Of a stretch of DNA of 60,993 nt, positions 8,864-48,016 are shown piece by piece. The position numbers and the translations under genes were made by a program. The notes below the pieces were generated by a model that ran no database searches, was not told where the DNA came from, and saw only the letters and a list, made by a program, of their open reading frames with translations. Where the stretch lies: positions 1 through 60,993 of the forward strand of contig JAAEMR010000009.1 of the NCBI GenBank assembly GCA_024225395.1. The letters run 5' to 3'. Origin of the DNA: Gammaproteobacteria bacterium. Lineage in GTDB: Bacteria > Pseudomonadota > Gammaproteobacteria > GCA-001735895. Numbering within the stretch: position 1 is the first letter of the stretch; each line of letters opens with the position of its first letter.

Positions 8864-9433
8864 TTGATTGGAACAGGACCCCGGCGTTATTGTTATCAAT
8901 ATCCGGGGCGTTCTGAATACTGTTTAAAGATTCCAAAGCCCAGGAAAAATGGTTATCTACAGCAGAAACGGGAAGTGAAATATTATCGACAACTGGCCAG
9001 AAGGAATGCGCCTTCTGAACGTATTACTCGATTTCATGGTTGCGTAGAAACAAACCTTGGCACCGGCTATATCTACGACCTGATTCGAGATAATGATGGT
9101 TCGATAGCGAAACAATTTATTGAATATTTAAAACAGTACCCGGAAAGAAAATCTGAGTATTTTGTAATGTTAGACGTTTTTGAAAATTATTTGTTCGAAA
9201 ATAGAGTTATTTTTTATGATTTAAGTCTGTGGAATATTTTATGCCGTAAAAGCGAAAACGGGTCTCTGGAACCTTTTATAATTGATGGAGTGGGGGATGT
9301 CGTTGCTATACCGATTCTAAATTTATCCACAAGACTGGTAAAACAGAAACAACAACGACGATGGATACGAATGATCAGGAAAATAGAAAAACAATTTGAC
9401 TGGATGACCGAATATAAAAGACATTATTGCTGA
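8864..9433 (+). CDS. YrbL-like protein (PhoP-regulated network family)
   Basis: A 189-residue protein with the opening IGTGPRRYCYQYP and later YDLSLWNILC and FIIDGVGD. These match the YrbL family, which has a protein-kinase-like fold with N and D positions resembling the catalytic and metal sites. Function is unknown in any species; in enterobacteria it is PhoP-controlled. The start is uncertain. Only TTG at 8864 is available in frame because TGA lies at 8849-8851, and relatives have about eight to ten more residues before the GTG motif. Either a TTG start is used or the N-terminus is damaged. The 3' end overlaps the decayed heptosyltransferase on the other strand by 10 bases. Confidence 0.7.
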   Translation: MIGTGPRRYCYQYPGRSEYCLKIPKPRKNGYLQQKREVKYYRQLARRNAPSERITRFHGCVETNLGTGYIYDLIRDNDGSIAKQFIEYLKQYPERKSEYFVMLDVFENYLFENRVIFYDLSLWNILCRKSENGSLEPFIIDGVGDVVAIPILNLSTRLVKQKQQRRWIRMIRKIEKQFDWMTEYKRHYC

Positions 9434-10231
9434 AGCAGTATAATCTCATCAAGTTGAGGCTTTACCATTTCTACAGTGATACTTTGCATGACCTTAGAGT
9501 CTCTTACTCTTTCACCCCAGCGAGCTTCATCGATTTCTTTAGCGTTAAATCTTTACAAAGCGACAGGGTAACTGTTAACTGTTTGTTGAAAAGCTATTAA
9601 TATGGGTCTGAACGTTCCGGGTTGCTGCTGGCACTGCTGAAGAATATCCTGGGTAAACTTTAGTTCTTCTGCAGCCGGGACACCGGTAAGTATGATGTTA
9701 ACATCCTGTTGCATTAAGTAGTTGATGACTTTTGCATAATTCTGTTGTGGCCAGTTTCGCCAGTTATTTTTTCGTGCACTGCTGCAGGGGTTGATAATGA
9801 CGGTAGACTTATTCCGGATTTGCTCTTGTGCGTAGTGCTGGCTGTCTTCATCGGATTTTTAACAGCCAGTCCATGTTGCGCCTGTCGATGCCCGGCTTTT
9901 CAATAAACTGAAAAATGTATCTACAATATGGACCCGGTCTGGACCTTCGGTATGCTGATTACAAAATAACCCGTGAAAATCCCGTTAGAGTTTTATGTAG
10001 ATTTTTTTATATTCGGCTAATCCATTTTTTATTAAAAATAATAAATTCAATACCGGGTAAAGATTTAACCAGCTGGTATTTGATAGTGCCGATAATCCAG
10101 CTGATTTTGGTGTCGGGTCATTGTTGTTGCAAAGTGGCAATGACCGGTAACATATGAGTCACATCGCCGATGGCTGACAGCTTTAAAATACACAGTGATC
10201 GGGGTGACTGTTGAAAACTTGTTGCACTCAT
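9424..10231 (-). pseudogene. Decayed heptosyltransferase (GT9) pseudogene
   Basis: Reverse-strand translation from ATG 10229-10231 gives MSATSFQQSPRS and then LKLSAIGDVTHMLPV, the classic heptosyltransferase N-terminus, ending at TGA about 37 codons in. A shifted frame continues with KISWIIGTIKYQLVKSLPG and stops again. Another frame holds TVIINPCSSARKNNWRNW followed by VNIILTGVPAAEE, the usual mid-protein nucleotide-sugar strand. Near the end RWGERVRDSKVMQ and ITVEMV, the family C-terminus, run to TAA 9424-9426. The catalytic DTGPMH-type segment is absent and about 70-90 residues seem deleted at each of two places. The clear leftover blocks suggest fairly recent loss. No intact heptosyltransferase lies in this window. 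This fills the gap between the YrbL-like gene and gmhA. Confidence 0.92.
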
Positions 10232-10252
10232 TGGATTTTTTAATGGATATTT

Positions 10253-10846
10253 TTACAGCCGCGGGAATAAATTGTTTTCAACTATTTCGCAGAGAATATG
10301 ACCGATAAGAATATGGCATTCCTGAATACGAGGTGTGTTGTCGGATGGTACATTCAGACAAATATCGGCACTGTCCTGAATAGCTCCGCTATCACCTGCC
10401 AGCCCGACTGTATAAATACCGGCCTGACGACAGGCTTCGATGGCTTTTAGAATGTTCGTTGAATTTCCAGAAGTTGAAATACCGATAAAAATATCTCCAT
10501 CTTTACCGTTGGCTTCAATTTCACGGGAAAATACCTCGTTGAAGCTATAATCATTTCCAGCGGCAGTGATCACTGAATAATTTGTGGCCAGTGCCATGGC
10601 TGGCAGGCCAGGGCGTTCAAAATTAAAACGACACACAAACTCTGCGGCAATATGTTGAGCATCTGCCGCACTGCCGCCATTGCCGGCGATCAACAGGCGG
10701 TTACCTCGATGAAACATGTCAATACAGCGATTACTAACATCATTTATTTTTTTGATTAATTCAGCATTTTGTAGCAGGCTGGTTTTTAAATCGATGGATT
10801 GCTGAATCGTATGTCTAATGAAAGAACTATGATTGATTTTTTCCAC
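10253..10846 (-). CDS. gmhA: GmhA, sedoheptulose-7-phosphate isomerase
   Basis: Converts sedoheptulose 7-phosphate to D-glycero-D-manno-heptose 7-phosphate, the first step to ADP-heptose. The 197-residue SIS-domain protein shows GNGGSAADAQHIAAEF, the GISTSGNSTNILKA phosphate loop and the C-terminal TPRIQECHILIGHILCE helix with the active-site residues (E and H) of the family. Length is normal. It lies downstream of the heptosyltransferase remnant's start on the same strand, so the two may once have been separate units. It is divergent from kdkA with an 82-base gap. Confidence 0.95.
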   Translation of the reverse strand: MEKINHSSFIRHTIQQSIDLKTSLLQNAELIKKINDVSNRCIDMFHRGNRLLIAGNGGSAADAQHIAAEFVCRFNFERPGLPAMALATNYSVITAAGNDYSFNEVFSREIEANGKDGDIFIGISTSGNSTNILKAIEACRQAGIYTVGLAGDSGAIQDSADICLNVPSDNTPRIQECHILIGHILCEIVENNLFPRL

Positions 10847-10928
10847 TTAATTTTGGCCGATGTTAAAGTTACCGTTACTTTACCGAAGAGTCAGATACAA
10901 TACCATCTGAATAAAGCTATCTTAAATC

Positions 10929-11645
10929 ATGTCATTTAACCAGCATATTATTAAACAGTCTGAATCTATAGCCCACCAGTTTAGGGCGAATGATTTTGAC
11001 CTGTCTTACTGGCGACCAAAAAAAGACACGGTGGAACTTGCTGGTGGTCGTGGAGCCAGTCAAAAAATACTCATCGATGAGAAATTTTATGTGTTAAGAC
11101 ACTATTTACGCGGAGGTTTTGTAGCGCATTTTTTGCATGACCAGTACTTTTGGACCGGGCTAAATAAAACCCGGCCATTTCTGGAGCAAAAAGCTATAGA
11201 ACAGGCATTGTTACATAATCTACCTGTACCTGAGGTAGTGGCTTTTAATGTACAAAAGCAGGGACTTTTTTACCGGGCATCCATCATCAGTCGATATATA
11301 AACAACCAGGGTACGCTGGCAAGTTTTTTGTACAATAATGAAATGTCTGACAAGTTATGGACTGAATTAGGCAAACTGATTAAACGATTACATCAGGCAA
11401 ATATCTTTCATGCCGATTTAAATGCAAATAATATTTTGATCGATGAAACAGGGAAGTTTTATATTATTGATTTTGACAAAGCGGAGATTATTTCTTCAAT
11501 GGCTGTTTCAGCCGAAAAAAATGTTCACAGGCTCTTACGTTCACTAACAAAAATTCAGAATTCAAGGCAGGAAAGGAACCTGTCTTTCTATTTTGATTCA
11601 AGTCAGTGGCAGTTTTTGCTGGATGGTTACGATGTGGAAAATTGA
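10929..11645 (+). CDS. kdkA: KdkA, 3-deoxy-D-manno-octulosonate kinase
   Basis: Phosphorylates the inner-core Kdo of lipid A-Kdo at position 4 using ATP. The 238-residue protein has a WaaP/KdkA kinase-like fold with FHADLNANNILID (catalytic loop, D and N) and YIIDFDKAEI (metal-binding D). The N-terminal RGGFVAHFLHDQYFW segment is typical of KdkA. In many species kdkA sits next to waaA; here the two are separated by the peptide/protease pair at 11785-13644. KdkA is common in bacteria with a single phosphorylated Kdo, in place of heptose-based phosphorylation, which is of interest beside a dead heptosyltransferase. Confidence 0.9.
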   Translation: MSFNQHIIKQSESIAHQFRANDFDLSYWRPKKDTVELAGGRGASQKILIDEKFYVLRHYLRGGFVAHFLHDQYFWTGLNKTRPFLEQKAIEQALLHNLPVPEVVAFNVQKQGLFYRASIISRYINNQGTLASFLYNNEMSDKLWTELGKLIKRLHQANIFHADLNANNILIDETGKFYIIDFDKAEIISSMAVSAEKNVHRLLRSLTKIQNSRQERNLSFYFDSSQWQFLLDGYDVEN

Positions 11646-11784
11646 AATAATCCAGAAGAGATAATCCTTTTACAAAAGTAAAGTAGTAAATTTTTTAAGC
11701 AGCTTGTCATAATTTTAAAGCCAGTGTAGGATAAATTGACTATCATGAGGATAGTTCTTAAATTTAATAACAAGGAGCAATGGA

Positions 11785-12162
11785 ATGATGTTAAGTGTTA
11801 TATGCAAGAAAATACCTAATCGTAATATTCGAGTACTTACTGATCTAGAGGTATTAGAGGTTAGTGAGGGTAAAAGGATTGGTAGAGGTTCTAATCGGTT
11901 TAGATCTCAAGCCGGAAATGGAGGGCTTCCTGCCGGTTGTCCTACTGGCCAATCAATGCAATTGCAAGGTATTAGCGTTTCCACCACTAGTTATACAGGG
12001 AGTGTTTCTGCAACAGTTGCAGTAATACCAAGTGGTACTGTTACTGCAAATGCCCCTGCTACAACTACTGTCAAATCTTATGTATGTGTACCTTCTTCTG
12101 CACCAGCACCTAAAATTCCACAGCCAGAGGCATCTGATAAAGAGCAAGATGAAGATGGATAG
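11785..12162 (+). CDS. Small protein with a bacteriocin-like leader, family not recognised
   Basis: A 125-residue protein I do not recognise. A strong Shine-Dalgarno (AAGGAG at 11772) lies 7 bases before ATG 11785. Residues 18-34 (LTDLEVLEVSEGKR) resemble the L-T-x-x-E-L-x-x-V-S-G-G leaders of double-glycine bacteriocins, although the expected GG is replaced by EG. The body is rich in S, T, A, V and G, with two cysteines (AGCPTGQ and SYVCVPSS) about 45 residues apart and a proline/acid-rich tail ending in EQDEDG. There is no membrane segment or Sec signal. It is AT-richer than its neighbours and is followed by a hairpin and then a secreted aspartic protease. It could be a RiPP or bacteriocin precursor, or just a small surface protein. 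Confidence 0.6.
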   Translation: MMLSVICKKIPNRNIRVLTDLEVLEVSEGKRIGRGSNRFRSQAGNGGLPAGCPTGQSMQLQGISVSTTSYTGSVSATVAVIPSGTVTANAPATTTVKSYVCVPSSAPAPKIPQPEASDKEQDEDG

Positions 12163-12195
12163 TTGTTTCAGCATGGTTTAAATTTTATTTATATA

Positions 12196-12233
12196 TCAAG
12201 GTAGAAAGCTTTAATTAAGCTTTCTATCCTTGA
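12196..12233 (+). promoter_or_regulatory. Long hairpin between the peptide and protease genes
   Basis: TCAAGG-TAGAAAGCTT and its complement meet in an AT loop with one bulged base, giving about 17 paired bases. It follows the peptide stop by 34 bases and precedes the protease start by 23. No long T run follows, so it could be a partial terminator or an mRNA-stabilising stem that raises peptide output over protease output. That role is inference. Confidence 0.65.
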
Positions 12234-12255
12234 TTTAGAATGTCCTTGTTTTATT

Positions 12256-13644
12256 ATGCTGAAATATTTTTTTCTGATACTACCTATATTTTTATTTGTT
12301 GCCCTAGCTACCAATGCTAGTTCTCAAAGCAACGGATTTGAAAAAGAAAATTTGTATACCGAATTTTTATCTGGTCGGTTATATAATATTCCTCAAGATG
12401 TTCTCACTTTGCAGGATGATAGTGTGCAAACTCTACTTCTTAAGGCATCCTTACATTATAAAAAGAATCGCTTTCAAGTAGCCCGGGAAAATATTCTTTT
12501 TGCTATGAGTAAAGATAATGTCACTTTAGTTGATAGAATGTTGTCAATATCATTGTTAAAAAATATGTATCTTTTAGATAAAGATAAACAAGAATTTTTA
12601 ACAGCTATTAATGATTCTAGGAACCTTGAAGCAGTGAGAGAAATATCTCACAAGAGTGATTTTAATACACTAATTGCATTAAAAAATGAGTTAATGAATG
12701 GGCTTTTACCTACCATAGAGTTTGGGAAAGCTAAACCTATCTCCTTTGATGGTGCTCCAAGAGAAACCTTGCATGGAAAAATTGATTCTCTCAATACTCG
12801 GCATCCTATTCCGGGCTATTTTTTTCAAATTCGATTTAGAGATAAAACAAATAACCATTTATACTATTGTTCTGTTGATACAGGATCACAGGATAGTTAT
12901 TTTCCTAAAGAAATTATTAATCCCGGTGGTGGAAAACAAATAGAAAAAGGTAATCTACCAATTGTTGTGAGTATTGGTGTTGGGGAAAATAGACCTGATA
13001 TTCAAATTATCAGAAATAACCACTTGACCATAGGTAATATTCAGTTTTCACAATATCCTTTTGTTATTACAAAGTTAAAAGAAATTGCATTTGATAATCA
13101 AAATTGTTTGATAGGGTTACCAATATTACTGGCAGGTAAAACGGTACTTTTTCATAGTCAGAGTAACTATATGAAGTTGGGGGGGGCTGCCCAAGCAACA
13201 AGCTCTTTTAGCAAAATACCCATATCTATTTCTGCTGAAGGATTATTGTTGGTGGAAGCTAAATATAGGGCAGAATATTTACCGGTTATCATTGATACAG
13301 GTGCTAGCCTTAGTGGATTAAATCGTTTCTTTCATTCCAGAAAAGATGAAAAAAATGATGAAGTTTATTATTACGGTGACCCAATCTCTCATTATGTATT
13401 AAAAAATTTTGAATTATTCTTGGGTGATGCAGGCGTTAAAACACCTTATACGGTTGTCGATTTTACTAATTATTTAGGTAATGTTATTTATCCGGAAAGT
13501 TACTTCCAGCATTTTGGTTTAATCGGCAGAGATATCCTCGGGCAATTTCAATGGATAGGTTTTGATTTTACAAAAATGGAAATGTATCTGGGGCCTTTAC
13601 GTGAAGATAGTTATACTTATAAACAACAGGCCTCGATTGACTGA
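12256..13644 (+). CDS. Secreted bilobal aspartic protease (retropepsin-like, two DTG sites)
   Basis: A 462-residue protein with a hydrophobic Sec signal (residues 1-22, cleavage near NASS-Q). An alpha-helical, TPR-like stretch runs from about 30 to 150. Two similar lobes follow. Lobe 1 has DTGS at residue 208 and CLIGLPIL near 284. Lobe 2 has DTGAS at residue 347 and GLIGRDIL near the C-terminus. Each pair is the catalytic Asp motif plus the hydrophobic-hydrophobic-Gly motif of clan AA peptidases, so the two lobes together could form one pepsin-like site or two retropepsin sites. The protein likely acts in the periplasm or outside. It is AT-rich like the peptide gene just upstream, 93 bases away. 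A processing role on that peptide is conjecture. Confidence 0.8.
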   Translation: MLKYFFLILPIFLFVALATNASSQSNGFEKENLYTEFLSGRLYNIPQDVLTLQDDSVQTLLLKASLHYKKNRFQVARENILFAMSKDNVTLVDRMLSISLLKNMYLLDKDKQEFLTAINDSRNLEAVREISHKSDFNTLIALKNELMNGLLPTIEFGKAKPISFDGAPRETLHGKIDSLNTRHPIPGYFFQIRFRDKTNNHLYYCSVDTGSQDSYFPKEIINPGGGKQIEKGNLPIVVSIGVGENRPDIQIIRNNHLTIGNIQFSQYPFVITKLKEIAFDNQNCLIGLPILLAGKTVLFHSQSNYMKLGGAAQATSSFSKIPISISAEGLLLVEAKYRAEYLPVIIDTGASLSGLNRFFHSRKDEKNDEVYYYGDPISHYVLKNFELFLGDAGVKTPYTVVDFTNYLGNVIYPESYFQHFGLIGRDILGQFQWIGFDFTKMEMYLGPLREDSYTYKQQASID

Positions 13645-13670
13645 TACTTCGAATGTTTGGACTTATTAAT

Positions 13671-14906
13671 TTAATTCAGACGCTTTTCAATAATACCTAG
13701 ATACTTTTCAAGTATATGGCTCTGAGATTGCACCACTTTTCTGGCATTTTTTGAAAGCTTTATTAAGCCATCGGGGTTATCAAGTAAGAATGGAATTTTC
13801 TCGGCTAACTGATCTATTCCAGATACCTGAATGATAGCCTTGTGCTGGCTTAGTAATGCAATATCTTGCTTGATATTTGCATCGCCTGGACCAGTGATTA
13901 CTGCTTTGCCCAGTCTTGCGGGTTCCAGTACATTATGGCCTCCGGTTGAGTCGAAAGAGCCTCCCATGATGATCAGTTCGGCGTATGCCATAAAAGTCTT
14001 TAATTCTCCCAGTGTGTCTGCCAGATAAATTTCAGTGGTTGGTGTAATAGTTTCGCCCAGACTGCGTTGTTTAACATCCAGCCCTATAGCAAGTAACTCG
14101 ACAAGAATTTCCCTGGCTCGTTGAGGGTGACGTGGAGCGATCACGACCAGTTGTTTTAGCGCTAATGTCTTTACAATTTCTGCGAATAACTTTTCCTCCG
14201 GGTGATGAGTTGATGCAAAAAGAATATAAGGTCGTTGTATGAGTTTCTCATATTCATCCGTAGAAACAGCATGAGCATATTTAAGGTTACCCGCTACGGT
14301 TATCTTTGACTTGTCAGCACCCATAGTGATCAGGTTCTGAACATCCTGCTCGGTTCTGGTGAGGTACTGATCAAAATACGTCAATGTGTTTTTTAATAAA
14401 TTTTTAGTCCATTTTGATGTGTCCAGACTTTTGTCTGACAATCTGGCATTTATTTGGATCAAGGTGACGCCAGCTTGTTTCGCCTGATAAAGGGTTTCCG
14501 GCCACAGTTCGGTTTCAGCGATCAAAGCCAGCTTGAAGTCAAAGTGTTTAAAAAAGTGACTGCTTAGCGGGAAGAAGTCTATGGGTATGGCTGTTACCTG
14601 TATTGTGTCAGGTAGTCGATGTATTGCGTGTTGATAACCGGTCACGGTAAACGTTGTGACCACAATGCAATAGTCTTTGTGCAACCGTTCAACCAGCGGT
14701 TTGATCAATTCGACTTCACCGACTGAAGCGGCATGAACCCAGATGCATTGTTTTAATCTGGTATCCGGGTAAAAGCCTAAACGTTGCCATAAAAAATTAA
14801 GCTGGCTGTTTTTCACTGCCTGCCACAGCGCATGTAAAACCCACACAGTAAAAAAAGCAAAAGAGAACAGTCGGTAACTAAAAGCAGGTTTAGAGGTTGA
14901 CATCAA
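13671..14906 (-). CDS. waaA: WaaA (KdtA), Kdo transferase
   Basis: Transfers Kdo from CMP-Kdo to the lipid IVA disaccharide at the inner membrane. The 411-residue protein begins with a membrane anchor (about residues 10-28), then the family segment IWVHAASVGEVE, whose glutamate is the catalytic base. AETELWPETL and the C-terminal MGGSFDSTGGHNVLEPA, which binds CMP-Kdo, are clear. Length is normal. Its start overlaps lpxL by 4 bases, so the two are translationally coupled. Mono- or bifunctionality cannot be told; a nearby KdkA often accompanies a monofunctional WaaA. Confidence 0.96.
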   Translation of the reverse strand: MMSTSKPAFSYRLFSFAFFTVWVLHALWQAVKNSQLNFLWQRLGFYPDTRLKQCIWVHAASVGEVELIKPLVERLHKDYCIVVTTFTVTGYQHAIHRLPDTIQVTAIPIDFFPLSSHFFKHFDFKLALIAETELWPETLYQAKQAGVTLIQINARLSDKSLDTSKWTKNLLKNTLTYFDQYLTRTEQDVQNLITMGADKSKITVAGNLKYAHAVSTDEYEKLIQRPYILFASTHHPEEKLFAEIVKTLALKQLVVIAPRHPQRAREILVELLAIGLDVKQRSLGETITPTTEIYLADTLGELKTFMAYAELIIMGGSFDSTGGHNVLEPARLGKAVITGPGDANIKQDIALLSQHKAIIQVSGIDQLAEKIPFLLDNPDGLIKLSKNARKVVQSQSHILEKYLGIIEKRLN

Positions 14907-15829
14907 TAGATGGCGGGTTCACCCGCTGGCCGGGTTTTGAAACGTTGGTGCACCCACATGTACTGATCTGGGTTTTGACGAACAAACTGTTCAATGGAAG
15001 CATTGATCGCTGTGGCATCAGCCAGGTCATCGCCACTGGGAAAATTATCCAGCGGTGGTTTTATCCACAAAATATAACCACTTCCATCAGCTTTTCTTTC
15101 CGGGTAATACGGTAGCATGACGGCTTTACTGGACTCGGCCAGACGGCTACTGGCGGTAATGGTGGCCGTTGGAATTCCAAAAAACGGAGCAAAAACATTT
15201 CTTTCCCGTGCAAAATTCTGGTCAGGAGCGTACCAGGTCGGGATCAGGTTGCGAATGCCCTTGATCATGCGTCGGGTATTTTTACGTGAGATCACATCGA
15301 CGAAGTATCCCTTTCGTTTAGTGTATAAAAGGCTGTCGAAAAGCTGGTTTTTCTGGGTGCGATACATAACCTGGAGGGGAGAATATAAAGCCAGCAAGCG
15401 GGCGCCTAATTCAAGACTGGTAAAGTGACCACTGAGTAAAATGACGGCCTGTTTGTTTGCGAGGCATTTTTCGATATGTTCCAGTCCTCGCACTTCAATC
15501 AGTGGTTTCAAGCGTTCAGGTTTCCACCACCAGCACATGGAGAGTTCCAGTAAAGAAATTCCCAGGTTTTCATAAGCTTTATTTTTTATCTGATTACGTT
15601 CTTCATTTGTTTTTTCAGGAAAGCAAAGTTGCAGGTTGGTATCAACCACATTTTCACGTTTACCTGCAATTTTATGAATCAATCGACCTAAAGATCGACC
15701 TGTTCCTAGATGAACAGAGTAGGGAAATAAAGTAGCCAGTCTCAATAAACCAATTGTTAACCACATTAACCAGAATTTTGGATGCAGGTAGTCAGTGGCT
15801 TTAAATTGTATTGACTTGTGTACAGCCAT
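14903..15829 (-). CDS. lpxL: LpxL-family late acyltransferase of lipid A
   Basis: Adds a secondary acyl chain to Kdo-lipid A from acyl-ACP. The 308-residue protein has an N-terminal membrane segment (about 18-36) and the HX4E catalytic dyad at H135-FTSL-E140 within SGHFTSLELG. PDQNFARERNVFAPFFG is another family block. LpxL, LpxM and LpxP cannot be separated by eye. It is encoded just before waaA in the direction of transcription, with a 4-base overlap. Confidence 0.92.
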   Translation of the reverse strand: MAVHKSIQFKATDYLHPKFWLMWLTIGLLRLATLFPYSVHLGTGRSLGRLIHKIAGKRENVVDTNLQLCFPEKTNEERNQIKNKAYENLGISLLELSMCWWWKPERLKPLIEVRGLEHIEKCLANKQAVILLSGHFTSLELGARLLALYSPLQVMYRTQKNQLFDSLLYTKRKGYFVDVISRKNTRRMIKGIRNLIPTWYAPDQNFARERNVFAPFFGIPTATITASSRLAESSKAVMLPYYPERKADGSGYILWIKPPLDNFPSGDDLADATAINASIEQFVRQNPDQYMWVHQRFKTRPAGEPAIY

Positions 15830-39898: not shown

Positions 39899-41623
39899 TT
39901 AATCCTTGGTGATCCGGTTAGCTTCTTCTAATCCAATAATGCCCTGTTTGATTTTTTTCAGGGCTGAGCGGCGTAGGTCATCAATACCTTCTTTATTAGC
40001 CTGATCGGCAAGGTCTATTGAGTTCGCCCCGGTCATTATTAATCGTGTCATTTCTTCAGAAATCGTCATTACCTGGTAAATACCAACACGTCCTTTATAA
40101 CCATCTGAACACTGGCTACATCCAACCGGTTTGTATAAAGTAAAACCTTCATCCAGGTCTTCCTGGGTGAAACCTTCCTCGAGCATAACTTCTGCAGGAA
40201 TAGCATCAACTGCTTTACATTTTTTACATAATCTTCTGCCCAGACGCTGAGCGATGATTAGTGAAACTGCAGTGGCTATATTAAAAGGGGGAACACCCAT
40301 GTTCATCAAACGTGTTAATGTTTGCGGGGCATCATTGGTATGCAGGGTAGACAGAACCAGGTGTCCGGTCTGGGCTGCTTTAATTGCTATTTCTGCAGTT
40401 TCAAGGTCACGAATCTCACCCACCATAACGATATCAGGATCCTGACGTAAAAAAGCACGTAGGGCTTCTGCAAAGGTTAAACCGACCTTTGCGTTCACGT
40501 TAACCTGGTTAATACCCTCAAGATTAATTTCTACCGGATCTTCCGCGGTTGAAATATTGGTTTCCGGGACATTTAAAATATTTAAACCGGTATAAAGTGA
40601 AACTGTTTTACCACTACCCGTCGGCCCGGTTACCAGGATCATGCCATAGGGGTTAGCGAGCGCATCCATATATTTTTCTTTTTGTTCAGGCTCGTAACCT
40701 AATGCATCAATACCGAGTTTTGCACTGGAGGCGTCCAGAATACGTAGCACAATCTTTTCACCAAAAAGAGTAGGGCAGGAGTTTACCCGAAAATCGATCG
40801 AACGCTTTTTAGATAATTTTAACTTGATGCGTCCATCCTGAGGTACGCGTCGTTCAGCTATGTCCATTCTGGACATAACTTTTACCCGCGCGGTAAGTTT
40901 TGCGGCGATATTGATAGGTGGAGAAGCGACTTCTGCGAGAATTCCGTCTACACGATAGCGAATTCGATAGCGCTTTTCATAAGGTTCAAAATGAATATCG
41001 GAGGCTCCTTTATTGATGGCATCAACCAGAATTTTATTAACGTATTTTACTACTGGAGCATCGTTGGCTTCATTTTGGGTTGGAGCATTGCTGTCATCCT
41101 CTTCTTCGCCTCCTTCAATATCCAGGTTTTCAAGGTCATCATCCAGCAACATGTCATCCATATCATCGTCCATGGCAGTGATGGCCTTTTGAATGAGTTC
41201 ATCCAGTTGGTCTTCCTGTACCAGTACGGCTTCCGTCGACATGCCGGTATTAAACTTGAATTCATCAAGAGCCTGCATGTTTGTCGGGTTTGATATGGCA
41301 ACGAACAGGCGGTTTCCTCGCTTATAAAGAGGAACGGCGTGATGTTTTGATATGAGTTTTTCGTTGACCAGAGTAATTTCGGCGTGCTCGGGGTCCATGG
41401 AGCTGAGGTCAAATACTGGCAGACCAAACTCCTCTGAGGAAGCCATCGCTATGACGGCGGCAGAGACGATATGATTGCTGATTAAATAATGGTTGAAGGT
41501 GATTTTTTCCTCGATAGCTTTCATTAGCGCTTCATGCGCTGTTTTTTCCGTTATAGCCTTGTCTTGAACAAGTTTACGGGGTAGTCCGGTTAAGGCTGTA
41601 GTTTTGGCTGCTGACATAGTCAA
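39899..41623 (-). CDS. pilB: PilB, pilus extension ATPase
   Basis: A 574-residue hexameric motor that drives pilus extension. An N-terminal GspE_N domain is followed by the ATPase. Seen are GPTGSGKTVSLY (Walker A) near 332, the Asp box, LRQDPDIVMVGEIRD (Walker B) and a tetracysteine zinc site CKKC/CSQC near 475-510. The acidic segment near 140-185 (DDDMDDMLLDDD and so on) is longer than usual by eye. It is the first gene of pilB, pilC, pilD. Unlike many relatives it does not face pilA; the VTC operon intervenes. Confidence 0.96.
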   Translation of the reverse strand: MTMSAAKTTALTGLPRKLVQDKAITEKTAHEALMKAIEEKITFNHYLISNHIVSAAVIAMASSEEFGLPVFDLSSMDPEHAEITLVNEKLISKHHAVPLYKRGNRLFVAISNPTNMQALDEFKFNTGMSTEAVLVQEDQLDELIQKAITAMDDDMDDMLLDDDLENLDIEGGEEEDDSNAPTQNEANDAPVVKYVNKILVDAINKGASDIHFEPYEKRYRIRYRVDGILAEVASPPINIAAKLTARVKVMSRMDIAERRVPQDGRIKLKLSKKRSIDFRVNSCPTLFGEKIVLRILDASSAKLGIDALGYEPEQKEKYMDALANPYGMILVTGPTGSGKTVSLYTGLNILNVPETNISTAEDPVEINLEGINQVNVNAKVGLTFAEALRAFLRQDPDIVMVGEIRDLETAEIAIKAAQTGHLVLSTLHTNDAPQTLTRLMNMGVPPFNIATAVSLIIAQRLGRRLCKKCKAVDAIPAEVMLEEGFTQEDLDEGFTLYKPVGCSQCSDGYKGRVGIYQVMTISEEMTRLIMTGANSIDLADQANKEGIDDLRRSALKKIKQGIIGLEEANRITKD

Positions 41624-41843: not shown

Positions 41844-42551
41844 ATGCATTTTAAGCGTCATGAATTAAAATATTATCTAAACGATACACAGACTGAGAGT
41901 TTACAGTATCAATTGACTCAGTTAATGCACCTGGATCAGCACTGTGAAGAACGCGTTGGTTACAGAGTTCGAAGTCTTTATTTTGATTCCATCGATGATG
42001 AATGTCTGTATCAGAAACAATCCGGTTTTTTGCACAGGAAAAAAATTAGACTACGTACTTACGGTGATACCGGACAGGATACCGTTAAGTTTGAAATCAA
42101 GCATAAAAACGGGCAATTAGTCAGAAAAGACTCTGTGACATTAAGTAGAAATGAGGCGGAAGATATCTGTGCTGGAGATTATGCATTATTGCTTCAACAT
42201 GAAAACCCGGTGTTAAATACTATTTACGCTACTTTCATGTCCAGAAATTACAAACCGAAAGTAATTGTTGAATATCAACGAGTAGCACTGGTTTTACCTT
42301 TCTCCAATATTAGGATTACATTTGATAAAAAACTCAGTTCAAATATTAACCACCTGGACCTTTTTTCCAGTGTTAAAGATACCATGCCAGTCATTCTGGA
42401 AGGAAAGCAGGTTTTAGAAGTGAAATATGATGACTTTCTACCCGGTTATATTAAAAGGGTATTATCAGGAGTAAATACCGAAAGAATGGCTATTAGTAAA
42501 TACACGCTCGCGAGACGATTTCATAAAGTCCAGAAATGGGAGGATAACTAA
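41844..42551 (+). CDS. VTC-domain polyphosphate-polymerase-like protein
   Basis: A 235-residue cytoplasmic protein of the VTC / triphosphate-tunnel fold. The tunnel strands carry alternating charged residues: HELKYYL at the start, VRSLYFDS near 43, KKIRLRTYG near 66, TVKFEIKH near 81 and EVKYDDFLP near 195. Yeast Vtc4 uses such a tunnel to make polyphosphate from ATP; bacterial homologues are assumed, not shown here, to do likewise. It starts the five-gene run, with 2 bases to the DUF4956 gene. No VTC accessory SPX domain is present. Confidence in the fold is high, in the activity moderate. Confidence 0.85.
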   Translation: MHFKRHELKYYLNDTQTESLQYQLTQLMHLDQHCEERVGYRVRSLYFDSIDDECLYQKQSGFLHRKKIRLRTYGDTGQDTVKFEIKHKNGQLVRKDSVTLSRNEAEDICAGDYALLLQHENPVLNTIYATFMSRNYKPKVIVEYQRVALVLPFSNIRITFDKKLSSNINHLDLFSSVKDTMPVILEGKQVLEVKYDDFLPGYIKRVLSGVNTERMAISKYTLARRFHKVQKWEDN

Positions 42552-42553
42552 CC

Positions 42554-43252
42554 ATGGATCAAGTTACATTTGCAGATGTGCTGCAAAAGAGTTTTATAGC
42601 AATGTCCATGGGTGGTACGGACCGGATAACAACGCTGAATATCATCATCAATGTATCAATGTCATTCTTGACCGGTATGTTTATTTTTTACATGTATAAA
42701 AAAACCTTTCAGGGAGTTTTGTATCAGCGCAGTTTTAATATCTCCCTGGTGTTAGCCAGTATTGTTACGGCCTTAGTGATTATGACGATCAGCGGGAATT
42801 TAATTCTTTCTCTGGGCATGGTGGGTGCATTATCCATAGTCCGTTTTCGTACTCCGGTTAAAGATAGTATGGATTTGATTTTCCTGTTCTGGGCTATTTC
42901 CTGCGGTATCGCAAATGGAGTGGGTTATTATAATATTTCTATCGTGGGTTCAGTCATGATTGCTATATTCCTGCTGATGTTAACTCGTTCGGGTAAAGGC
43001 TCTGCAGATACTTTTTTAATGGTTTTGCAGCTTACAAATACTGAAACTGAGAAAAAAATATTAGAAGAAATTCAGCAACAGGTCAGTAAGTTTTCAATAA
43101 AATCTAAATCTGTTTCAGATATGGGTACTGAGATTACTCTCGAGATAAAAATTAAAGATGACAACACTGAGTTCATGAATAAACTTCAGGATAGTGATGG
43201 CGTGAACCGTATTACCATGATTGCCTATGATCAGGATCTATCTTCAGTCTGA
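42554..43252 (+). CDS. DUF4956 membrane protein
   Basis: A 232-residue inner-membrane protein with four hydrophobic segments in the first 150 residues and a cytoplasmic C-terminal alpha/beta part. LSLGMVGALSIVRFRTPVK is the hallmark of DUF4956. It shares its transcript with the VTC gene (2-base gap) and with the 337-aa gene (3-base gap). DUF4956 genes are often next to VTC genes, as I recall; a role as membrane channel or partner for the VTC enzyme is a reasonable guess. Confidence 0.88.
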   Translation: MDQVTFADVLQKSFIAMSMGGTDRITTLNIIINVSMSFLTGMFIFYMYKKTFQGVLYQRSFNISLVLASIVTALVIMTISGNLILSLGMVGALSIVRFRTPVKDSMDLIFLFWAISCGIANGVGYYNISIVGSVMIAIFLLMLTRSGKGSADTFLMVLQLTNTETEKKILEEIQQQVSKFSIKSKSVSDMGTEITLEIKIKDDNTEFMNKLQDSDGVNRITMIAYDQDLSSV

Positions 43253-43255
43253 TAG

Positions 43256-44269
43256 ATGTTGAAATTGTTACTCATGTTGAAACAGCAACAGAAGTATTTT
43301 GGTGCTTTTCTGTTGCTGCTGTTTAGCGCTTATGTCTGGTCGCAAGAGGGTACGCAGCAATGCAGCAACGGCGTTTTTTTAGACAGTTACTTTTTAATTG
43401 AAGTAGAAGATATTGCCAGCGTATCAGCTTTTTTTCAGCAAATTCCAGCTCAGCTTTCTAGCGAGAATGACGAGCTATTTGCCGTTACAGTGGGTAGTAA
43501 AGACAGGGTAGAAACCTATTTTGATGACACACATTCTACGTTATTAAAGAATGATCAGGAGTTGATACTTAATTTACATACCAACTTACCCGTGTATAGA
43601 TTAGAGAGGGAACATGTAGACCTTAACAATCGTATTCCCGGTCGACTTAAAAATGATATTTTTGAAGTAAAAAATTATAATAAAAAAGTAACGGCCCTGG
43701 ATAAACATGAATTATTTGGCCGGGTTAAAAGGAATCAACGTCCTTTGTTGATTGAAAAACTAAAGGTTTTTATAAATGATCCTGTCGTCGATATAGAAAA
43801 GAAACTTCAGGTCGAGCATGAAGAAGTGGTTCAGCTTTATAGCCATTATGGTGAAGGCTATGGAGAAATTACCTGGGATAAATTTTATGTTTCTAATTTT
43901 GGATTATCAAAAACATATTCCCTGTTCAAATTTCAACTTTATTCGGATCTCAGCAGTCAGTTAAGCCCGTCAGAAAGTAAATACCTTAATCAATATTTTT
44001 GTAATACTTATGCTGAGTTTATCAACAGCTTCCCCCATATTCCTGTTTATTATCAGTTTGGATATAAAAGCTATCACTTCCTGGCGGAATCACTTTTCCC
44101 GCTCAAATCTTTTTTTGAAAAATACCCTGCTTTATTTTCATTAGGTCAGATAGTCATACTGATTCTGGTGGGCTTTCTTTTTATGACCCTGTTTATAGGT
44201 CGCTATACAAAAGGTCAGCATTACAGGCATGTAGTGGTGAATAAAGTCGAAAAGCGTGATGAAAAATAA
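43256..44269 (+). CDS. Membrane-anchored protein with a possible VTC/CYTH-like domain
   Basis: A 337-residue protein with an N-terminal signal or anchor (about 14-30) and a C-terminal transmembrane helix (about 293-315), so the bulk lies outside the cytoplasm. I do not recognise the family. Within it VETYFDDTHSTLLK, then LEREHVDLNN and FEVKNYNKK, echo the tunnel strands of the VTC enzyme two genes upstream (YFDS, then KIRLR, then FEIKH). This hints at a second, outside copy of the fold but is only a visual match. The start is ATG 43256. The end overlaps the next gene by 11 bases. Confidence 0.6.
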   Translation: MLKLLLMLKQQQKYFGAFLLLLFSAYVWSQEGTQQCSNGVFLDSYFLIEVEDIASVSAFFQQIPAQLSSENDELFAVTVGSKDRVETYFDDTHSTLLKNDQELILNLHTNLPVYRLEREHVDLNNRIPGRLKNDIFEVKNYNKKVTALDKHELFGRVKRNQRPLLIEKLKVFINDPVVDIEKKLQVEHEEVVQLYSHYGEGYGEITWDKFYVSNFGLSKTYSLFKFQLYSDLSSQLSPSESKYLNQYFCNTYAEFINSFPHIPVYYQFGYKSYHFLAESLFPLKSFFEKYPALFSLGQIVILILVGFLFMTLFIGRYTKGQHYRHVVVNKVEKRDEK

Positions 44270-46985
44270 CCAGATTATAAAATCTCCGTGGTGGTTGTAC
44301 CTGCTTAGTATGCTGATTTTTGCAGGGATGGGTAATATTCTTTTTGGTGGTTTGAAAGGAATGCTGGAATATAAAAAATCTTATGAAGTCGATTTGTCGA
44401 TAGATTTAAAGAACCTGCATTTTTTTACCAAAGATTATGTGAAACGGCTTGTGCAGCAGTTAACCGTCAGTGAATTGCCTGCTGAAACAGAACTGACGTC
44501 ATTTCATATTTTTACCAATGAAAAAAGTCTTGATTCTCTGGAGTCGAATCTCCCCTCCAGTGGTAAAACACAATTTAGAGAAGGTCATATAAGAGTTGAC
44601 CCTGAAGGAATGACCAGCCCTATAGAGTATAGATTTCGTGGTGGCTTGCCTCTTCACTGGTTATACAAAAAAAAATCACTCAGGGTGAAGTTGCCGGCTT
44701 TCACTACTTATCTGGGAGAGAGGCAGTTTAACCTGGTTAACCCGTCAACGATCTACACCATCCCCGACTGGATAAGTTACGAGATGGCGAAATCTGTGGG
44801 TTTGTTGACTCCTGACTTTTTTCCAGTACGTCTTTTTATTAATGATGAAACTAACGGTATTCATTTTTTTCTGAGCAGGATAGATGAATCATTTTTACGT
44901 AAAAACAGGCGCATGCCGGGCAGTATATATTCGGGAGATACTGTTTATACACCCAGTCCATTTGCTGCGGCTAATGCGACCGAGATGCGTGAGCGAGTAT
45001 TTCCGGGAAAAGAAGATAATGTTTCACTGATGTGGAAAGATCATCGTTTATGGAAAAAAAATACCTCTCGTAATGCAGAGATGAAACAGCATAGAGGGGA
45101 TATTAAAAAATTTGTAGAGATTATAAATAACCCGGACGCTGTGCAATTTATGCAGGATTATGAAGTTTATTTTGATAAGGAAAAATTTAACTTATTCTGG
45201 GGGGTTGATAGTTTACTGGGGGCTTATCACCATGACCTTTATCATAACCATAAAATTTATTTCGATCCCTATAAAGGTAAAGTAGAACCCGTAGAGTGGG
45301 ATGTCAGGTATTGGTCAATGAATGTTCCGGTGCCCGATTACCCGTTACTGAAGCAGGTTAAATTAAATCCTGTACTGGATTTTGAAAAAAACCAGGTACT
45401 TTATGAGCTTTGGAAAAAATTCTCAGTGGACGATATGATGCAAAATATTATTGAAAAAAGTGATGTTTTGATACCTGAGTTAAAGGCTGATCCATACCGG
45501 CAGCAACCCGATAAATATATTAAGTTATTCTCCAAAGATAAGGTCGTTCCTTTTAGTTTGAGTGAGTTTGATGATGCTATAGAGGTGTTAAAATTAACTT
45601 ATCAGGCCAGGCACAAAGCTGTTAAAGATATTCTGGAAAATAGTGTCGCTGCTTTTAAGCTTGAATCAACAGGCAGTAAACGGGTTGAATTGAATATAGC
45701 GGTGTCGGGTGATAGTCCAGTTGATGTCAACCCGTGGTCTCTAATTCCTCAACATTTACAATCCCGGGTAGAAATAAAGCGCGTTTACCAGGGGCTTGAG
45801 CTGTCATCAGTGACGTTGAATAACCTGCAGAGACTGTTTCCCGGAAAAACTATAAAACCGGGTAATGCTATAGGAAAAGCGGATGAATGGTCGACGCTTA
45901 CTTATGGTAAAGACCGTCTGGAGGTATCTGCGCTGCATTATCGTTTTCTGATCAAAGGAGTTGACCTGAATGATTTAAATAAGCAGCAAAACCTTCAGGC
46001 CATTAATTCAATAACGGGAAGAGTTCACCTGGTAAATCAACTGTCAACGTTGCCAGCTAATACCGAAACAAGATCGGTTCATCCCTGGGCATTTATTAAC
46101 GCACAACAAAAATTAGATGAACACATTGTGCTGTCAGGTGAAATCAATATTCTGCAGGATCGTGTTTACAGAGAAAACCAGCAAGTTAGCATTTTACCCG
46201 GTACGACTTTTAAACTGGCGAAAGGCCGTTCACTGGTGTTTTATGGCAAGGTGACGGCCAATGGAAATAGTGAACAGCCAATACGTTTTATACAGAAAGA
46301 CAAAGGAGAGTCCTGGGGGAGTATCATTATTCAGGGGGCATCAGCTTCGAGTAGTTCTTTAACGCATATTGAAGTTTCTGGTGGGTCAGTCTCAACACAG
46401 GGTTTTATAAATTATCCCGGGCAGTTAAATATCCATGATGTTAATGAATTTACAGTTGATCATTGCCGGATAAAAAATAATACCATCGGGGATGACGCTT
46501 TGCATGTTGCTTACAGTAATGGCTCAATTAATCATTGTGTGTTTGAAAATACAGCCTTCGATGCACTGGATATGGATATTGTCGATGTGACGGTAGCCAA
46601 CTCTCAATTTATTAATATTGGTAATGATGCTGTTGATTTAATGTCTTCGAATGTCGAATTATCAAACTTATCTGTATCAGGCGCTGGTGATAAGTGCTTT
46701 TCGATTGGAGAAAGTAGCGATGTCAAAATTAAAGACAGTAAACTCATTCAGTGCCAGACAGGAATAGCGGTAAAAGATGAGTCTAAGGCTTACCTGGATA
46801 ACTTACAGTTTAATGATATCGAAGGGTCAGCTATTGCGCTGTATCGTAAAAATGCCCGTTATGGTTCAGGTGGTGAAGTTAGAGGTCAGTTACTTCATGG
46901 TATTTCTGAGGCTGATATTAGTGTCGGTACTGATTCTGTAAGTCATATTTCCAGTCAGCAATTGATTTCAAAACAAGGTCAGTAG
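44259..46985 (+). CDS. CotH-kinase-like protein with C-terminal beta-helix
   Basis: A 908-residue envelope protein. One transmembrane helix near residues 12-30 anchors it. A CotH-like domain spans about 110-420, with FRGGLPLHWLYKKKSLRVK, NPSTIYTIPDWISYE and GVDSLLGAYHHDLYHNHK followed by VEPVEWDVRYW, the WD motif of the CotH active site. After about 620 a right-handed parallel beta-helix follows, with repeated short strands such as ALDMDIVDV, AVDLMSSNVEL and AIALYRK. CotH proteins phosphorylate surface proteins. ATG 44259 is chosen; GTG 44256 would add one residue. It is cotranslated with the preceding gene. Confidence 0.82.
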   Translation: MKNNQIIKSPWWLYLLSMLIFAGMGNILFGGLKGMLEYKKSYEVDLSIDLKNLHFFTKDYVKRLVQQLTVSELPAETELTSFHIFTNEKSLDSLESNLPSSGKTQFREGHIRVDPEGMTSPIEYRFRGGLPLHWLYKKKSLRVKLPAFTTYLGERQFNLVNPSTIYTIPDWISYEMAKSVGLLTPDFFPVRLFINDETNGIHFFLSRIDESFLRKNRRMPGSIYSGDTVYTPSPFAAANATEMRERVFPGKEDNVSLMWKDHRLWKKNTSRNAEMKQHRGDIKKFVEIINNPDAVQFMQDYEVYFDKEKFNLFWGVDSLLGAYHHDLYHNHKIYFDPYKGKVEPVEWDVRYWSMNVPVPDYPLLKQVKLNPVLDFEKNQVLYELWKKFSVDDMMQNIIEKSDVLIPELKADPYRQQPDKYIKLFSKDKVVPFSLSEFDDAIEVLKLTYQARHKAVKDILENSVAAFKLESTGSKRVELNIAVSGDSPVDVNPWSLIPQHLQSRVEIKRVYQGLELSSVTLNNLQRLFPGKTIKPGNAIGKADEWSTLTYGKDRLEVSALHYRFLIKGVDLNDLNKQQNLQAINSITGRVHLVNQLSTLPANTETRSVHPWAFINAQQKLDEHIVLSGEINILQDRVYRENQQVSILPGTTFKLAKGRSLVFYGKVTANGNSEQPIRFIQKDKGESWGSIIIQGASASSSSLTHIEVSGGSVSTQGFINYPGQLNIHDVNEFTVDHCRIKNNTIGDDALHVAYSNGSINHCVFENTAFDALDMDIVDVTVANSQFINIGNDAVDLMSSNVELSNLSVSGAGDKCFSIGESSDVKIKDSKLIQCQTGIAVKDESKAYLDNLQFNDIEGSAIALYRKNARYGSGGEVRGQLLHGISEADISVGTDSVSHISSQQLISKQGQ

Positions 46986-46987
46986 TA

Positions 46988-47443
46988 ATGAGTGACAACA
47001 AAAGCCTGTTAGCCGGTACCATTATTTTATCAAGTTCACTATTGTTGTGTGCAGGTTTCAGTTACTGGCTGGTCAATGAATCTGAAGCTGAGCGGGCACA
47101 AAGGTTTAACCGTGAGTATGACCTGTTGCTGTTGCAAAATAAACATCAGCAGGCCGGAGAGCTATTTATGGATGTATTGTCTGAAGGTGGTGATGCTCCG
47201 CTGGACGAAGTCTGGTTACCATTCGTGTTAATGCAGACCGATGGTTATGCAATATTGACTAACTATAGCCGGATATTAGCGGGTAATCCCGATAGAGAAG
47301 CGACCTATGAAGAAATTTCAAATCTTATAATAAATGCACCCCGGAGCTTTCATGATGAATTAAAGGGACATTACTTTGCTGCACTTATTGATATTCCACA
47401 GGTTCGTTTAGAGTGGTTGCAAAAGTATGGGTTAGTAGAATAG
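46988..47443 (+). CDS. Small membrane protein, last gene of the VTC operon
   Basis: A 151-residue protein with one transmembrane helix (about 8-28) and a soluble, helical remainder rich in Q, E and L. I do not recognise a family. It starts 2 bases after the CotH gene, so it belongs to the same unit. A bidirectional terminator follows. It might be a partner that tethers the CotH/beta-helix protein, but there is no direct sign. Confidence 0.65.
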   Translation: MSDNKSLLAGTIILSSSLLLCAGFSYWLVNESEAERAQRFNREYDLLLLQNKHQQAGELFMDVLSEGGDAPLDEVWLPFVLMQTDGYAILTNYSRILAGNPDREATYEEISNLIINAPRSFHDELKGHYFAALIDIPQVRLEWLQKYGLVE

Positions 47444-47508: not shown

Positions 47509-47537
47509 AAAAAAAGGCCGGTTTCCCGGCCTTTTTT
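47509..47537. terminator. Bidirectional terminator between the VTC operon and pilA
   Basis: A stem of AAGGCCGG and CCGGCCTT around a TTTC loop, flanked by an A run before and a T run after, works in both directions. It ends both the five-gene operon and pilA, which face one another. Confidence 0.9.
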
Positions 47538-47557: not shown

Positions 47558-48016
47558 TTAGTTACGACAGTTAGATGGTACATATTTGAAAACTGTAGCA
47601 CCTGTTGGAGTTGAGCATGCCCAGGTCACAGAACCCTGACCAACTGTAGGAGTTAACAGAACTGTTTCACCGTTGAAAGATGGGTTACCACCTAAAGTAG
47701 CGTTGTATGTAATAGTAATTACACCATTTGCGCCTACACCAACAGACGTTACAGCGTTACCCGTGATGGCAGTTGAAGCAGCAAGACCAGCACCAGCATT
47801 TGAACCAGGTAGTGAACCTGTAGAAGCATTAGTTTCTGCAACAGCTGTTTTAGCAGCACCGGCAAGTCCCAGACCTTCAGAAACTTTAGAACGGATAGTG
47901 TAATCCTGATAAGCAGGCAGTGCTACTGCAGCCAGAATACCGATGATTGCTACAACGATCATTAATTCGATCAGTGTGAAACCAGATTGTTGCTTGTTAA
48001 CTTTGATGTTCATCAT
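47558..48016 (-). CDS. pilA: PilA, major type IVa pilin
   Basis: A 152-residue prepilin. The leader ends at QQSG and mature PilA starts with [16 protein letters not shown], including the E5 residue. Alanine- and glycine-rich central loops follow, and two cysteines near the C-terminus (ACSTPTG and PSNCRN) would form the D-region disulfide. The start ATG 48016 has a GAGGAA Shine-Dalgarno. It has its own sigma-54 promoter and terminator. It is 5.9 kb away from pilB, which it would face were the VTC operon not in between. Confidence 0.96.

Follow-up and report, generated by a model that had tools for sequence, protein, structure and literature searches.

What does a cell gain by encoding a polyphosphate-polymerase-type protein, a membrane protein and a predicted extracytoplasmic kinase side by side? 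Genes for VTC, DUF4956 and CotH proteins form a widespread triad that has been described in print and has no established mechanism. The question is raised anew by a stretch of gammaproteobacterial DNA of 60,993 nucleotides (the window), in which the triad is joined by two further genes, OUT and SM, and lies within a type IV pilus locus.

A five-gene operon between pilA and pilB

Five open reading frames, all on the + strand, span positions 41844–47443 in the order VTC, DUF4956, OUT, CotH-beta-helix and SM, with successive intergenic gaps of 2, 3, −11, and 2 bases when the CotH start is taken as the ATG at 44259 (a GTG at 44256 is an alternative start). A symmetric hairpin with a U-run at about 47510–47537, recognized from sequence and fold calculation (−19.5 kcal/mol, z −3.3), follows the last gene as a strong terminator, and its position between the operon and the convergent pilA enables it to serve both strands. 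This hairpin is not in the list of a consensus terminator scanner, probably due to the T-run being counted into the stem, and promoter-like matches are at chance level. The open reading frames, their spacing, and the hairpin agree with an earlier sequence-only reading of the same DNA, which had described five same-direction genes with gaps of 2–3 bases or overlaps and a common terminator.

The operon is flanked by coaE, pilD, pilC, and pilB on one side (pilB at 39899–41623 on the − strand; Pfam T2SSE 1e-151 plus MshEN) and by pilA, pilR, and pilS on the other (the pilin gene pilA at 47558–48016 on the − strand; Pfam Pilin 1.9e-22), with both pilB and pilA, the latter a candidate target, standing outside it. 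The same five genes occupy the same place between pilA and pilB in Ca. Thiodiazotropha (L061). In 17 of 20 relatives with PilB orthologs, a pilA-like open reading frame adjoins pilB and the operon is absent; the other three have 6 kb between pilA and pilB (L159), masked sequence at that point (L149), or a contig that ends too soon (L160). The placement of the operon between pilA and pilB appears to be new. Between the window and L061, identity is 66% for VTC and 76% for DUF4956, compared with 62% for PilB and 36% for OUT, which suggests that the core is under strong constraint or was horizontally transferred and that the external parts are fast-evolving.

Glycosylation-type genes (GT2, GtrA, methyltransferase, and STT3-like) that lie beside pilin genes often encode pilin modifiers, and for this reason the type IV pilus, or surface material associated with it, is the likeliest target of the operon, as judged from its position at two loci. 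The pilA–pilB interval of L159 (L159:1787-8151) carries GT2, GtrA, methyltransferase, and STT3-like oligosaccharyltransferase genes, a cassette that may mark a hot spot of pilin modification.

The encoded proteins

The VTC-domain protein (41844–42551, +; 235 amino acids, without a transmembrane segment) has a triphosphate tunnel of the polyphosphate-polymerase type (Pfam PF09359, 2.5e-40, 138.9 bits against a cut-off of 23), and yeast Vtc4 is hit at 8e-23 with a profile built from 17 bacterial members of the VTC family. Twelve catalytic and basic tunnel positions of Vtc4 (R196, K200, R264, R266, E279, K281, K294, R361, R373, E426, K428, and K458) are all identical in the window protein (R5, K9, R69, R71, E84, K86, K95, R146, R157, E192, K194, and K219, respectively) when it is aligned to the solved Vtc4, with the catalytic Lys458 corresponding to K219. 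Four basic residues that guide the chain in Vtc4 are glutamates in the tripolyphosphatase AtTTM3 (PMC4641920); the guiding residues R196, K294, and K428 of Vtc4, placed here by motif and not from that paper, are R5, K95, and K194 in the window. The sole phosphatase-like position is E7 (T198 in Vtc4), which is acidic as in tripolyphosphatases. The window genome also encodes PPK1, so the VTC protein is not needed for bulk polyphosphate.

The DUF4956 membrane protein (42554–43252, +; 232 amino acids) matches Pfam PF16316 (9.5e-11, 42.2 bits against a cut-off of 30.6) and has an MgtC-like architecture by Pfam and AlphaFold2, with the MgtC profile PF02308 itself reaching 18.0 bits, under its cut-off of 31.4. 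A conserved RFRxxxK motif is present, and A92, R97, F98, R99, F112, and G118 are invariant in 49 homologs. The AlphaFold2 model (pLDDT 85) consists of membrane helices and an ACT-like C-terminal domain, with a short conserved helix (83–96) that runs into the invariant RFR. Structure comparison with Foldseek and VIA-align covered the C-terminal domain only, which resembles ACT-like folds and, as one of the many proteins that have this common fold, the C-terminal domain of MgtC; the likeness to MgtC is a works-like resemblance only. A second DUF4956-like gene, below cut-off, occurs in the same genome (L019, G000:C236:33157-33456) near a two-component system, with VTC absent from the 20 kb around it.

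The CotH protein (44259–46985, +; 908 amino acids) is predicted to carry one N-terminal membrane anchor and combines a CotH kinase domain (PF08757, 9.3e-19, 68.5 bits against a cut-off of 23.8) with a C-terminal right-handed beta-helix (Pfam Beta_helix, 3.3e-11). Its profile matches the CotH structure 5jd9 at 1.1e-41, and the metal-site residues N330 and D348 are invariant in the homolog alignment. B. subtilis CotH is a demonstrated kinase that is inactive as D228Q and D251A (PMC7821199); by motif, D348 matches its metal-binding Asp251, and the likely equivalent of its catalytic Asp228 is D326, where the alignment is shifted by one or two residues. The window protein is divergent from classical CotH (9.3e-19, where the scanned Firmicutes loci reach 1e-58 or better). 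This divergence, together with the tripolyphosphatase-like E7 of the VTC protein, would fit a kinase-fold enzyme with some other transfer chemistry (e.g., AMP or glycan phosphate transfer) beside a VTC triphosphatase, a reading that is very improbable given that N330 and D348 are invariant in CotH and K95, K194, and K219 are kept in VTC.

A search with a model of the beta-helix tail found it in 10 of 78 CotH open reading frames: those of the window, Ca. Thiodiazotropha (L061), a Campylobacteraceae MAG (L062), an Elusimicrobiaceae MAG (L063), an Olavius-associated deltaproteobacterium (L093), and, within the class of the window, L014 (two copies), L015, L016, and L018. The remaining 68, mostly from Firmicutes, lack it. 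Because the model was built from seven of the ten carriers, what the search mainly shows is that the tail is missing elsewhere, with L015, L016, and L018 as independent matches; Pfam supports the tail in seven of the ten. CotH with a beta-helix tail presents itself as a diderm subtype, which appears to be new. At L014, a protein resembling OpgB/phosphoglycerol transferase I is encoded between the two CotH-beta-helix genes with glycosyltransferases nearby (L014:10091-19423).

Neither OUT (43256–44269, +; 337 amino acids) nor SM (46988–47443, +; 151 amino acids) matches a Pfam family significantly. By hydropathy, SM has an N-terminal membrane anchor and a small external domain, and its one ortholog is in L061 (46% identity). 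OUT is a predicted periplasmic protein whose N-terminus looks signal-peptide-like by eye, and hydropathy shows only a C-terminal anchor (296–314) after an external domain. Its ortholog in L061 is the only relative found among 41 family or order genomes, OUT has no match among PDB sequences, and the single sequence has none to VTC by hhalign. A two-sequence OUT profile, by comparison, can be aligned to that of VTC along 136 columns (E 0.01–0.06), with the YFD, E-V-K, and I-T-x-D-K motifs in collinear order. Shuffled versions did as well in none of 150 trials against A2 and in three of 150 against 89 VTC proteins, and the OUT match is the best of 11 profiles against A2, the 10 controls scoring lower and none aligning over more than 50 columns. 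These comparisons suggest that OUT may be a degenerate triphosphate-tunnel fold; its AlphaFold2 model, from a two-sequence input, has a pLDDT of 44 and was not used for a fold search. DUF6583 was considered for OUT and set aside, with L061 OUT giving a weak match below cut-off (1.3e-4) and window OUT giving none.

Linkage of the triad and its surface-polymer contexts

Of the 229 class genomes, eight have VTC and 11 have DUF4956, and in every one of the eight DUF4956 lies within 6 kb of VTC on the same contig (Fisher P = 1e-12). CotH is found in 19 class genomes, comprising six of the eight with VTC versus 13 of the 221 others (P = 4e-6). At the best 80 DUF4956 loci in named genomes, VTC is immediately adjacent in 78 and CotH lies within six genes in 70; these loci are the 80 best relatives of the window DUF4956, and the set thus leans to this subfamily and to Firmicutes. 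The linkage of VTC, DUF4956, and CotH is far beyond chance and, like the residue conservation, is firm; distantly related bacteria share the three-gene core. The sequence-only reading had pointed to this neighborhood link and had made a joint system depend on such linkage in other genomes and on a VTC tunnel that keeps its basic residues, and both are as it expected. It mentioned neither the location between pilA and pilB nor the published connection to Pel, both of which were found here.

The linkage itself is not new, as Gram-positive Pel loci are already known from the literature to carry the triad as accessory genes: CotH, a polyphosphate polymerase, DUF4956, and DUF4832 adjoin streptococcal and clostridial pel (PMC7112168). 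In S. intermedius, the triad genes SIR_1592-1594 have all been deleted, with increased Pel and decreased aggregation after loss of DUF4956, decreased Pel and decreased aggregation after loss of CotH, and no reported effect after loss of VTC (PMC12345266). The opposite Pel shifts and the lack of a reported effect of the VTC deletion argue against a simple one-pathway model, in which like effects would be expected. The same study reported that synteny of the triad outside the Pel locus was not found (PMC12345266). Confinement of the triad to Pel is rejected here: the window genome (98.9% complete) has no PelG, its operon is flanked by pil genes and is not in a pel locus, and most of the 80 loci have non-pel neighborhoods, with pel neighborhoods at six of the 80 and at five of the 46 whose flanks extend at least 6 kb each way (pel being judged at these other loci from the neighborhood and not the whole genome). 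The triad thus also exists without Pel, which appears to be new and contradicts, and so corrects, the published report.

A role in exopolysaccharide control has to be weighed on the same data. DUF4956 and CotH would tune how a surface polysaccharide is made, exported, or attached, as in streptococcal Pel, VTC would supply or sense a phosphate signal, and the pilin locus would be a landing site only. In addition to the Gram-positive accessory set and its deletion phenotypes, two Paenibacillus proteins point this way, in which PelG (N-terminal) and CotH (C-terminal) are fused in one open reading frame each (P. caseinilyticus, L106:6158-9265, and P. abyssi, L126:5992-9258), a direct link of CotH to a polysaccharide exporter. 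Other surface-polymer contexts are a polysaccharide flippase beside DUF4956 in L093, together with a gene weakly resembling a glycosyltransferase or epimerase, and the glycosyltransferases and phosphoglycerol-transferase-like protein that neighbor L014. The lack of PelG in the window genome, the low share of pel neighborhoods, and the absence of a polysaccharide synthase beside the operon among the window open reading frames scanned leave this role a serious candidate, albeit a doubtful one. At the Elusimicrobiaceae locus, an autotransporter with Chlamydia-PMP-type repeats adjoins the triad (L063:11041-14973).

Further neighborhoods bear on phosphate or stress homeostasis, where VTC and DUF4956 would together act as an MgtC-like store or sensor of polyphosphate at the membrane, with CotH as a signaling partner and not a decorating enzyme. 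Along with the MgtC-like architecture of DUF4956, the neighbors that fit this idea are a phosphate transporter of the Pit type next to VTC in L012, which is of the same genus as the window and groups VTC, the transporter, an HlyD-type adaptor, and DUF4956 (9358–15545), and two-component regulators (response regulator and/or histidine kinase) at 31 of the 80 loci and 25 of the 46 with at least 6 kb of flank. Homeostasis is nonetheless unlikely in view of the predicted location of CotH, OUT, and SM outside the cytoplasm, the PPK1 already present, and the surface-polymer contexts and PelG-CotH fusions. VTC, a TolC-type protein, an HlyD-type adaptor, and DUF4956 are likewise grouped at L013:9041-13814, with CotH nearby; no ABC or RND pump was recognized among the proteins scanned at L012 and L013.

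Proposed function and known systems

The common function of the triad is most likely to modify or control a surface polymer by means of phosphate. The form preferred for the window, tentatively and at somewhat less than an even chance, is a portable envelope-phosphorylation module that would act here on the pilus or the surface of the cell. The cytoplasmic VTC protein would use nucleotide to make polyphosphate or some related phosphoryl product, and DUF4956, with its cytosolic ACT-like (sensor-type) domain, would couple VTC to the membrane and external parts. CotH, anchored in the inner membrane, would act as an extracytoplasmic kinase that its beta-helix tail docks on a surface polymer, with OUT and SM as lineage-specific external adaptors; the presumed target is the type IV pilus or surface material associated with it. 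In favor of this module stand the triad linkage, the conserved VTC and CotH residues, the surface-polymer contexts, the place between pilA and pilB, and the S. intermedius phenotypes of the DUF4956 and CotH deletions. The 13 class genomes with CotH and without VTC count against it, as do the acidic E7 of VTC, the presence of PPK1, the shifted alignment at the catalytic Asp of CotH, and the S. intermedius results for VTC and for the direction of the Pel changes. The sequence-only reading had likewise seen a cell-envelope machine for making or moving a phosphate polymer and for modifying surface proteins; it is partly supported, by the triad linkage and the VTC tunnel residues, and the making or moving of polymer and the modification of surface proteins stay plausible conjecture.

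The source of ATP for CotH has been called unanswered (PMC7821199). In a more specific and distinctly unlikely version, polyphosphate made by VTC and DUF4956 would also be passed by them through the inner membrane to serve as the energy-rich phosphate donor of CotH. CotH would then phosphorylate type IV pilin or a surface polymer here, and OUT would be a catalytically dead tunnel domain that handles the chain in the periplasm; if true, such a donor would solve the lack of ATP outside the cytoplasm. The tie of VTC to an extracytoplasmic kinase in a PPK1 genome bears on the role of bacterial VTC proteins, and the triad bears also on what feeds CotH outside the cytoplasm. The Pel-free, pilus-linked variant with a beta-helix offers a clean place to test both questions.

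The literature found on the mechanism of bacterial VTC with CotH consists of the Pel papers and one on Clostridium perfringens. In the NELoc-2 cluster of the latter (PMC2879425), VTC and CotH are encoded together with membrane proteins, as in the window, and the 'tubulin' proteins beside VTC (222–226 amino acids) are DUF4956-sized, a likeness by size alone; in contrast to the window, the cluster is from a Firmicute and includes a putative chitin synthase, and neither a beta-helix nor a link to pili has been reported for it. Yeast Vtc4 (PDB 3g3q, 8i6v; PMC4641920) shares with the window VTC the tunnel domain and its mapped catalytic and basic residues, whereas the window protein has neither an SPX domain nor a fused membrane segment, carries the acidic E7, and has a separate DUF4956 protein as its operon partner. 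The Bacillus spore-coat kinase CotH (PDB 5jd9; PMC7821199) has the kinase domain and the metal-site Asn and Asp in common with the window CotH, which differs in being membrane-anchored, about 900 amino acids long, equipped with a beta-helix tail, from a non-spore-former, and of low similarity. The Gram-positive pelDEADAFG loci (PMC7112168; PMC12345266) contain the same three core families as neighboring genes, but the window triad is set apart from theirs by the lack of PelG, the beta-helix tail of CotH, two extra external proteins, and its place in a type IV pilus locus.
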